Shown here: positions 18,400 through 20,976 of the stretch, in pieces
Layout of the letters: each line of letters opens with the position of its first letter
Numbering within the stretch: position 1 is the first letter of the stretch
Assembly: GCF_018326425.1 (NCBI RefSeq)
Contig: NZ_AP024601.1
Coordinates: 1-64,000, forward strand
Length of the DNA stretch: 64,000 nucleotides
From: Polycladomyces abyssicola
GTDB lineage: Bacteria > Bacillota > Bacilli > Thermoactinomycetales > JIR-001
Direction: 5' to 3'
Translations under genes and position numbers: made by a program
The notes under the pieces: generated by a model
The model's database searches: none
What the model saw: the letters and a program-made list of their open reading frames with translations, nothing else
Told to the model about the DNA's origin: nothing

Positions 18400-18593
18400 G
18401 CTTTGTCACTCCTTTGCTTGGACGTTAATGTTTATTTTTCACGATCCGGCCGCGAATATGACGGTGAATTCAGGGAGCATTGCCGAATCTCGGTGTCAGG
18501 GCGCACCCAGATCCCTTTCTCCACATAGGATGTTGGTGGGGCAATCGCCCAGAACCCAACAGTGGATCATTGGCATGGAGGGATGGGAAACCC

Positions 18594-20441
18594 ATGTGCG
18601 GTATCACGGGATGGATTGACTGGAAACGGGATTTGCGAAACCAGGGTGCGATTTTGGAGACAATGAACCAAACCCATTGTCGCCGCGGACCGGATGCAGA
18701 GGGAAAATGGCTGTCTCAACACGCGGCATTGGGTCATCGGCGTCTGGCCGTGATCGACCTGGAAGGGGGGGCCCAGCCGATGGTCCGTCGGACCGAGGAA
18801 CGAACATACGTCATTGTCTACAATGGCGAATTGTACAATATGGACGAACTGCGGCGGGAGTTGGAACAATGCGGCCACCGTATGGAATCGCGATCCGACA
18901 CCGAGTTGGTATTGCGGGCGTACATGCAATGGGGACCGGCATGCATGAGCCGATTGCGGGGAATTTTTGCTTACGCCATTTGGGATGAAGCGGAGAAACG
19001 ACTTTTTCTGGCACGAGATCGTATCGGGGTAAAACCGTTGTTTTATGCGGTACGTGATGGGGCGTTTCTGTTCGGTTCCGAGCTGAAATCCTTGTTGGCA
19101 CATCCCGATGTGGAACCAGTGATTGACGCCGAGGGGTTGGCAGAAGTGCTGGTGATGTCGCCGGCGCGAACACCTGGCCACGGTGTGTTCCGGGGAGTGG
19201 AGGAATTGCGCGCCGGATGGTGGATGATCGTGGATCGGGACGGGATCCGCAAACAACCGTACTGGACATTGGAAAGCCGGGAACACACCGATGATCTGCC
19301 AACCACGATCGAACGGGTACGGTCGTTGTTCCAGGATACTGTTCGCCGGCAGTTAGTATCAGACGTGCCGGTTGGAACGATGCTGTCCGGCGGTCTGGAC
19401 TCCAGTGCCATCTCCGCTTGGGCGTCCCGGGTGATGGAAGAGGAAGGACGCGGCCCCGTGGATACTTTTTCCGTCGACTACGTAGGGAATGACCGGCATT
19501 TCACGCCGAACGAGTTTCAGCCCAATTCCGATGCACCTTGGGTCAAACGGATGAGTGAATATTTGCAGTCTCGTCATCACGTCATCGAAGTGGATTTACC
19601 GGAATTGGTCTCAGCGCTGGCGGATGCCCTTCGGGCACGGGATCTGCCGGGGATGACGGATGTGGACGCTTCCCTGCTCCTGTTTTGCAAGGAAATCAAA
19701 CAATCAGCCACGATGGTACTTTCGGGCGAATGTGCCGACGAAGTGTTTGGGGGCTATCCATGGTTTCACCGACGGGAAATGTTGGAAGCAGACACGTTTC
19801 CTTGGGCGCGTATGACGGATCAGCGGGTTCGCTTTCTCTCTCCGGATGTGACGCGGATGACGCGGCCTGACGAGTATGTACAGGAGCGGTATCGGGAAGC
19901 GATTGCCGAGGTGCCCGCTTTGGAGAGAGAGGAGGATTCCAATGCGCGGATGCGGGAGATGTTTTACCTCAACCTCACGCGTTGGATGCCGACCCTGTTG
20001 GACCGTAAAGACCGCATGAGTATGGCGGTCGGATTGGAAGTGCGGGTGCCGTTTTGCGATCATCCGCTGGTTGAATACATGTGGAATGTTCCATGGGAAT
20101 GGAAGGCGTTGGAGGGGAGGGAAAAGGGATTACTCAGACGGGCGTTGACCGGCATCCTGCCTGATGATGTATTGTGGCGCAAAAAAAGTCCCTATCCGAA
20201 AACACACGATCCGGGTTATTTAACCGCTGTGAGGAATCAGGTCCTGCAATTGCTGGACGATCCACAATCCCCGTTGCGTGATCTTTTGGATATAGAAGCG
20301 GTTCGATCGTTTGCACGTGCCGATCTTTCCAAAGTACATCTCCCTTGGTTCGGCCAACTGATGAACGTACCGCAATTGTTTGCCCATTGGTGGCAACTGG
20401 ATATGTGGATGCGCGAATACGGCGTGACGATCCAGGCATGA
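18594..20441 (+). CDS. asnB: Asparagine synthetase (glutamine-hydrolysing)
   Basis: The enzyme makes asparagine from aspartate, ATP and glutamine. The 615-residue protein begins MCGITGWIDW, with Cys2 as the N-terminal glutaminase nucleophile after Met removal, then the N-terminal nucleophile domain (YNGELYN, RSDTELVL) and the synthetase domain with the ATP pyrophosphatase motif LSGGLDSSAI near residues 264-273 and SGECADEVFGGYPWF. ATG 18594 follows GGAGGGATGG; any earlier in-frame start would block Cys2. It is not part of the conserved Bacillus origin order, so it is a lineage insertion here. B. subtilis has three paralogues (AsnB, AsnH, AsnO) and I cannot say which is orthologous. Confidence 0.94.
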   Translation: MCGITGWIDWKRDLRNQGAILETMNQTHCRRGPDAEGKWLSQHAALGHRRLAVIDLEGGAQPMVRRTEERTYVIVYNGELYNMDELRRELEQCGHRMESRSDTELVLRAYMQWGPACMSRLRGIFAYAIWDEAEKRLFLARDRIGVKPLFYAVRDGAFLFGSELKSLLAHPDVEPVIDAEGLAEVLVMSPARTPGHGVFRGVEELRAGWWMIVDRDGIRKQPYWTLESREHTDDLPTTIERVRSLFQDTVRRQLVSDVPVGTMLSGGLDSSAISAWASRVMEEEGRGPVDTFSVDYVGNDRHFTPNEFQPNSDAPWVKRMSEYLQSRHHVIEVDLPELVSALADALRARDLPGMTDVDASLLLFCKEIKQSATMVLSGECADEVFGGYPWFHRREMLEADTFPWARMTDQRVRFLSPDVTRMTRPDEYVQERYREAIAEVPALEREEDSNARMREMFYLNLTRWMPTLLDRKDRMSMAVGLEVRVPFCDHPLVEYMWNVPWEWKALEGREKGLLRRALTGILPDDVLWRKKSPYPKTHDPGYLTAVRNQVLQLLDDPQSPLRDLLDIEAVRSFARADLSKVHLPWFGQLMNVPQLFAHWWQLDMWMREYGVTIQA

Positions 20442-20652
20442 TCAGACACACTTTCACTTTGGCATCGAGTGATTCTTTCTCCTTCCGCTCATCAATTGCA
20501 GTGCTCCAAGGTCACACTCGTTGGAAAAAGGTATCTCAAGAAGGAGCAAACATGAGTTGACGCGATTGAACTTTCCTCAAATGAGAGGAAAGCTTTCCTT
20601 TCTGCTGTTTTACATGAGGACAAAAAATTCTTGACCGTTTTTGTCGAAACCC

Positions 20653-20681
20653 TTTCACTATGCGAACATATGTTCTATAAT
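20653..20681 (+). promoter_or_regulatory. LexA (SOS) box overlapping a promoter
   Basis: CGAACATATGTTCT at 20663-20676 matches the Bacillus LexA/DinR operator CGAACnnnnGTTCG at 13 of 14 defined or palindromic positions, with a fully intact GAAC-N4-GTTC core. It directly abuts a perfect TATAAT at 20676-20681; a weak -35-like TTTCAC lies at 20653-20658. The next gene downstream is the 38-residue peptide at 20717. Repression by LexA and induction by DNA damage are inferred. Confidence 0.8.
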
Positions 20682-20716
20682 AGGTGTACAAATTACCCTC
20701 GTGAAGGGGGATGGCC

Positions 20717-20833
20717 ATGGAACGTTGGATTCAACTAATGGCCGCCATCATTGCGTTGTTCCGTTTGGTGTTGGAATTAAGGGAACTATGGGGGCGTCGG
20801 CAAAAACGGTCCAACCGAAAAAAGAAAAAGTAA
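20717..20833 (+). CDS. LexA-box-controlled small amphipathic basic peptide
   Basis: This 38-codon open frame starts with ATG 20717, 6 bases after GAAGGGGG; an in-frame ATG at 20711 is too close to that site. The product has one hydrophobic or amphipathic helix, WIQLMAAIIALFRLVLEL, followed by RELWGRRQKRSNRKKKK, a strongly basic tail. A LexA box and TATAAT lie 40-50 bases upstream. I recognise no family. By analogy, SOS-induced single-helix peptides include TisB-like membrane toxins and division inhibitors, but this is only analogy. The frame is closed just before the tRNA-Arg promoter. Confidence 0.65.
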   Translation: MERWIQLMAAIIALFRLVLELRELWGRRQKRSNRKKKK

Positions 20834-20899: not shown

Positions 20900-20976
20900 G
20901 CGCCCGTAGCTCAGCAGGATAGAGCAGCGGTTTCCTAAACCGCGTGTCGGAGGTTCGAGTCCTCTCGGGCGCGCCA
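20900..20976 (+). tRNA. tRNA-Arg (anticodon CCU)
   Basis: This is a 77-base tRNA. Acceptor GCGCCCG pairs with CGGGCGC, the anticodon stem-loop is GCGGT-TTCCTAA-ACCGC giving anticodon CCT, the T-arm is GAGGTTCGAGTCCTC, and CCA is encoded. It reads the AGG codon. Confidence 0.97.

Follow-up and report, generated by a model that had tools for sequence, protein, structure and literature searches.

Membrane peptides that shut cells down upon SOS induction are well described in Escherichia coli (TisB, DinQ). The polar strip of TisB comprises D5/K12/Q19/D22/K26, and cationic residues typically mark the C-terminus of membrane type I toxins, providing an anchor in many of them (PMC8309996). Within Bacillota, LexA-controlled membrane proteins arrest division in Bacillus subtilis (YneA) and Staphylococcus aureus (SosA) (PMC9578287), and a review of B. 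subtilis toxin–antitoxin systems cites LexA control only for type I toxins of E. coli (PMC6562991). The gene analyzed here lies about 20 kb from dnaA, at which the window begins (the window being the whole stretch of 64,000 nucleotides under analysis). If the reading developed below is true, a conserved one-helix peptide operated by LexA in Gram-positive spore formers would represent an independent origin of the E. coli strategy, and the Spo0A-type box fixed in its promoter would constitute a direct, testable wiring from DNA damage to the sporulation decision; the peptide family is also tied to small peptides of prophages. The features considered are the following:

18480..20441, + strand: asparagine-synthetase-like gene, conserved upstream neighbor (ORF list; named by eye from the sequence)
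20641..20648, + strand: TTGTCGAA, a match to the Spo0A-box core TGTCGAA, roughly −47 to −40 relative to the inferred start of transcription
20663..20675, + strand: LexA operator CGAACATATGTTC (pattern search; GAACN4GTTC kept in 14/14 orthologs)
20676..20681, + strand: −10 hexamer TATAAT, touching the LexA operator (invariant in 14/14; conserved −35 hexamer absent)
20696..20710, + strand: 5′UTR hairpin CCCUC-GUGAA-GGGGG, pairing the ribosome site (structure prediction)
20704..20710, + strand: ribosome-binding site AAGGGGG, Shine–Dalgarno (SD)-like (direct sequence reading)
20717..20833, + strand: 38-amino-acid peptide MERWIQLMAAIIALFRLVLELRELWGRRQKRSNRKKKK (frame kept in 14 species; synonymous-biased substitutions; single helix by AlphaFold2)
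20900..20976, + strand: tRNA-Arg (CCU), conserved downstream neighbor (ARAGORN, Rfam)
G000:C1:1924810-1924932 of the same genome (loci L002, L097), + strand: LexA-free paralog (comparison with relatives' sequences)

The 38-codon frame runs from the ATG at 20717, six nucleotides past the SD, to the TAA at 20831-20833. An alternative in-frame ATG at 20711 would yield 40 residues, and the start at 20717 is favored because the former abuts the SD and the orthologs align from their ME(R/K)W start. Whole-genome, motif and profile searches recovered orthologs in 14 of the 42 genomes of the order Thermoactinomycetales, including Marinithermofilum abyssi, Paludifilum halophilum and Kroppenstedtia guangzhouensis. 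They are spread over three families (3/3 genomes of the genus of the window, 10/10 of family f3 and the sole genome of f4), and several other families of the order are without the gene. The orthologous products span 38-51 residues, among which M1, E2, W4, Q6, A10, L14 and R16 are invariant and L7 and E20 nearly so, and the synonymous/nonsynonymous codon differences within the genus amount to 3/1, 8/2 and 9/3. The neighborhood is also shared: the C-terminus of asparagine synthetase precedes the peptide gene in the relatives' loci read, the start of the downstream tRNA was in view at 11/14 orthologous loci, and the ortholog in G023 likewise lies 19 kb from the start of its single contig. In the window, dnaN, gyrB, gyrA, guaB and serS (recognized by eye) lie upstream, and the asparagine-synthetase-like gene has a probable internal start at MCGITGW. 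The flanks outside the promoter and frame exhibit no conservation among the orthologs.

Two GAACN4GTTC cores were observed in the window against 1.67 expected in a pattern search, and since one or two such cores arise by chance per 64 kb, the window sequence alone proves little; the second core (57331) lies inside a coding frame and was discarded. What raises the motif above chance is its conservation in front of the orthologs, which rules out the chance origin that the window by itself would allow. A search of the 42 genomes for TTGTCGAA-N15-GAACN4GTTC-TATAAT returned 13 perfect matches, each directly upstream of a peptide ortholog, and the 14th ortholog (L101, from Paludifilum halophilum; L095 is the same sequence) keeps GAACN4GTTC-TATAAT without TTGTCGAA. 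The original prediction, which had described a GAAC-N4-GTTC operator abutting a perfect TATAAT and a good ribosome site in front of a frame too short for routine gene calling, thus holds at 20663-20675, 20676-20681 and 20704-20710 (AAGGGGG, six nucleotides before the ATG): this unannotated gene is real by conservation, and neither the frame nor the LexA box, whose persistence in close relatives was the check set beforehand, is lost in any of the 14 orthologs. From these comparisons, we regard the coding status of the frame and the conservation of its LexA operator as practically certain.

The Bacillus LexA box is CGAACN4GTTCG (PMC9578287), and the window operator carries the CGAACN4GTTC form, the core of which touches TATAAT throughout the 14 orthologs. 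The same genome encodes lexA, preceded by a near-consensus box of its own, and its dinB is preceded by CGAACGTTTGTTC, which indicates that the motif is in use in this genome. SOS induction of the peptide gene in life is highly probable. A second perfect copy of CGAACATATGTTC, with G as the next base, was observed in this genome at G000:C1:591661-591673 (minus strand; locus L038, ~1500), just past a TATACT-like −10. A sequence resembling a ribosome site, a TTG-initiated frame of 29 codons and a hairpin like that of a terminator come after it, and the site possibly belongs to an SOS-controlled small RNA or leader. Separately, five OrfB/TnpB-like transposon gene copies in G029 (L089-L093) have near-LexA boxes (e.g., AAACATATGTTC) directly before TATAAT, as if expression of the transposon gene were damage-linked; these boxes were rejected as sites of the peptide family because the gene they precede is unrelated.

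No −35 hexamer is shared among the 14 orthologs, the best matches reaching 3-4 of 6 positions at spacers of 15-19 with no common position; the candidate of the window itself is TTCACT at a spacer of 16. As no conserved −35 exists, the promoter is suggested to need an activator. Downstream, predicted hairpins cover the SD across the 14 orthologs, and a role for them as a strong regulator was rejected, given that they are just modestly stronger than at other genes of the window (p = 0.045).

The core motif of the Spo0A box is TGTCGAA (PMC3485338), and TTGTCGAA, which contains it, is exactly conserved at a fixed 15 bp before GAAC in 13/14 orthologous promoters. All eight of its columns are invariant, whereas the 15-bp spacer exhibits 49% mean pairwise identity and one invariant column (p = 6e-9, a value that ignores relatedness and is not to be read literally). 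The genome also encodes a Spo0A whose DNA-binding domain nearly matches the solved Spo0A chains 1fc3 and 1lq1; TGTCGAA is present upstream of its spo0A, and the upstream region of spoIIE carries just degenerate boxes. In the peptide promoter, TTGTCGAA lies 27 bp from the −10, and a conserved second box is absent. Taken as a Spo0A site, TTGTCGAA has good evidence in its favor, short of proof, and we place the chance of a Spo0A input to this promoter at about even. Within the limits of our literature search, no description of such a LexA/Spo0A box pairing was found. The original prediction did not mention this box, nor the paralog and the prophage relatives described below.

The invariance of the core box at its fixed distance, the occurrence of the family in spore formers and the agreement of the genome's own Spo0A with the solved protein would also fit a peptide that is mainly under Spo0A control, acting in early sporulation or in membrane binding, with LexA merely blocking or timing it in the absence of DNA damage. 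Against such a role, the LexA box is kept even in L101, where the Spo0A box is missing, and the gene is missing from several families of the order, which makes it improbable in our judgment. Elsewhere in the genome of the window, TTGTCGAA boxes in tandem, spaced exactly 10 bp from each other (L058, 1500-1528), precede a gene for a lipoprotein-like product and a divergently oriented HTH regulator, and are likely to mark a Spo0A target.

AlphaFold2, run without an alignment, predicted a single helix over residues 2-37 with a pLDDT of 85, although single-helix models come easily and prove little. On this helix, E2, Q6, S/A13, R16 and E20 form a narrow polar strip followed by a Lys/Arg tail, and the polar positions 6, 13, 16 and 20 cluster in an arc of 80 degrees (permutation p = 0.016, and 0.006 in the paralog family). 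The net charge of +9 is borne by the C-terminal tail, residues 1-25 summing to 0, in agreement with the single helix and strongly basic tail originally proposed. Because the invariant R16 and the nearly invariant E20 sit inside the hydrophobic stretch, a peripheral amphipathic helix instead of a spanning one is possible. From the sequence, membrane association is probable. The claim that the peptide belongs to no known family also stood, as no credible match was found in Pfam, NCBIfam (both at E up to 10) or PHROGs, and the peptide gene adds a family without a curated model. A PDB sequence search with the peptide and an IMG/VR scan with the LexA-type family returned no match, nor did collections of plasmids and phages when queried with this peptide or its relatives, a setting in which such short queries have little power. 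Our literature search, within its limits, found no description of the peptide.

In common with TisB (E. coli tisB/IstR-1), the locus has a LexA-repressed promoter, a very short predicted amphipathic helix whose narrow polar strip alternates in charge, and structured mRNA near the start. One amphipathic helix bearing a polar strip, as the AlphaFold2 model and the strip test indicate, amounts to resemblance and not homology. Unlike TisB, the peptide has a C-terminal tail that is longer and strongly basic, no RNA like IstR was found, the host is a Gram-positive spore former, and the promoter carries an invariant Spo0A-type box; a sequence match is also absent (none in Pfam/NCBIfam at E up to 10, with power limited by very short proteins). 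The peptide thus appears TisB-like in plan, with membership of the TisB family unsupported by sequence match. By analogy, growth arrest or toxicity may be its effect, a proposition for which we see equal grounds for belief and doubt.

As with YneA and SosA, the product would be a LexA-controlled small membrane protein of Bacillota, its membrane location being predicted; unlike them, it is a single helix of 38-51 residues with no further domain, is not adjacent to lexA and matches no family, so that neither their family membership nor their larger extracellular part was found in the 38-residue peptide. A function like that of YneA, SosA or SidA, in which the peptide would regulate SOS division or septation by binding a divisome or sporulation component instead of permeabilizing the membrane, draws on the two described division inhibitors, on the conservation of specific residues (W4, Q6, R16 and E20) beyond general hydrophobicity, and on the absence of a yneA-like gene among the ORFs read next to lexA. 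We nevertheless consider it unlikely, since the peptide is much shorter than YneA and has no extracellular or LysM domain, and its prophage relatives have no division link.

The reading that we favor, by a little over even confidence, is that of an SOS-derepressed one-helix membrane peptide, TisB-like in plan, which slows or arrests damaged cells in part of the Thermoactinomycetales. LexA on the operator touching TATAAT would block RNA polymerase, and upon DNA damage RecA-driven cleavage of LexA would free the promoter, as expected from known LexA biology and the observed operator conservation. Spo0A~P, at the box near −43, would probably act as an activator or modulator. The 38-51-residue product may then insert as an amphipathic helix, with its polar strip of alternating charges and a cytosolic Lys/Arg tail, and would leak or perturb the membrane so that the damaged cell slows or arrests, as the TisB analogy and the relationship to prophage peptides suggest.

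This relationship emerged from a second copy of the gene, present in all 14 genomes, with a GTG start in those read and the type sequence VERWILLFSAVVRMVETLMQLSQRYGxRYKRKxRKKNPYF. Examination of four genomes placed the paralog tail-to-tail with recG (named by eye) and revealed no LexA box ahead of this recG-side copy, which is divergent from a gene of ~100 residues and unknown function in relatives and is more conserved than the LexA type. Both families align at the profile level (probability 95.9%), and their joint profile reaches short peptides elsewhere in Bacilli, within the order (G003, G008) and outside it (G131, G105, G166, G119). The copies in G131, G105 and G166 lie near prophage-type genes (repressors, endolysin/amidase and holin-like ORFs; functions by eye), and an IMG/VR search with the prophage-type peptides found relatives on six viral contigs, the homology resting on 25-40 residues of hydrophobic helix. 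Several prophage relatives have palindrome-like sequences between −35 and −10, reminiscent of repressor operators. Since relatives sit by prophage genes with such palindromes, descent of the LexA-controlled gene from a repressor-controlled prophage peptide is suggested, though not proved. Two TGTCGAA motifs also occur upstream of the G131 prophage relative, possibly by coincidence.

The type I toxins and holin-like peptides of Bacilli prophages (TxpA, BsrG/BsrE, YonT, putative holin-like toxins) share with our peptide the short hydrophobic helix and Lys/Arg tail, and its distant relatives lie in prophages by lysis genes, with another short hydrophobic ORF downstream. Unlike these toxins, the peptide gene occupies a conserved chromosomal locus with a LexA operator in place of a phage operator, no antisense RNA was seen, and no Pfam/PHROGs model matches. 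An antisense RNA over the locus, raised in the original prediction, gained no support: one weak minus-strand promoter match (9/12) was found at 20705-20677, with no evidence of conservation, and Rfam, which identified the downstream tRNA-Arg, gave no match to such an RNA. With the promoter match this weak, and with unconserved flanks, a classical type I toxin–antitoxin locus whose antisense or trans-acting small RNA escaped notice is very improbable, even though the peptide is toxin-like, the hairpin holds the ribosome site, and the prophage relatives precede another short hydrophobic frame.

An extension of the favored reading, which we offer tentatively and hold to be rather doubtful, is a dual-input promoter in which LexA repression and Spo0A activation would restrict the TisB-like peptide to DNA-damaged cells entering starvation or sporulation, a prophage-type membrane peptide family having been co-opted by spore formers as a checkpoint for DNA damage.

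Among the prophage-type peptides (ME-WILLLTAVINL-TA), those at L142 (from 7559), L167 (minus strand), L168 (from 4326) and L169 (from 8467) are each followed by a second short hydrophobic ORF within ~200 bp downstream, and in three of these loci a GAGGGCGAAAGCCCTC hairpin separates the two ORFs; we take the pair for a candidate bicistronic unit, of holin-like or type I toxin character, that appears undescribed.
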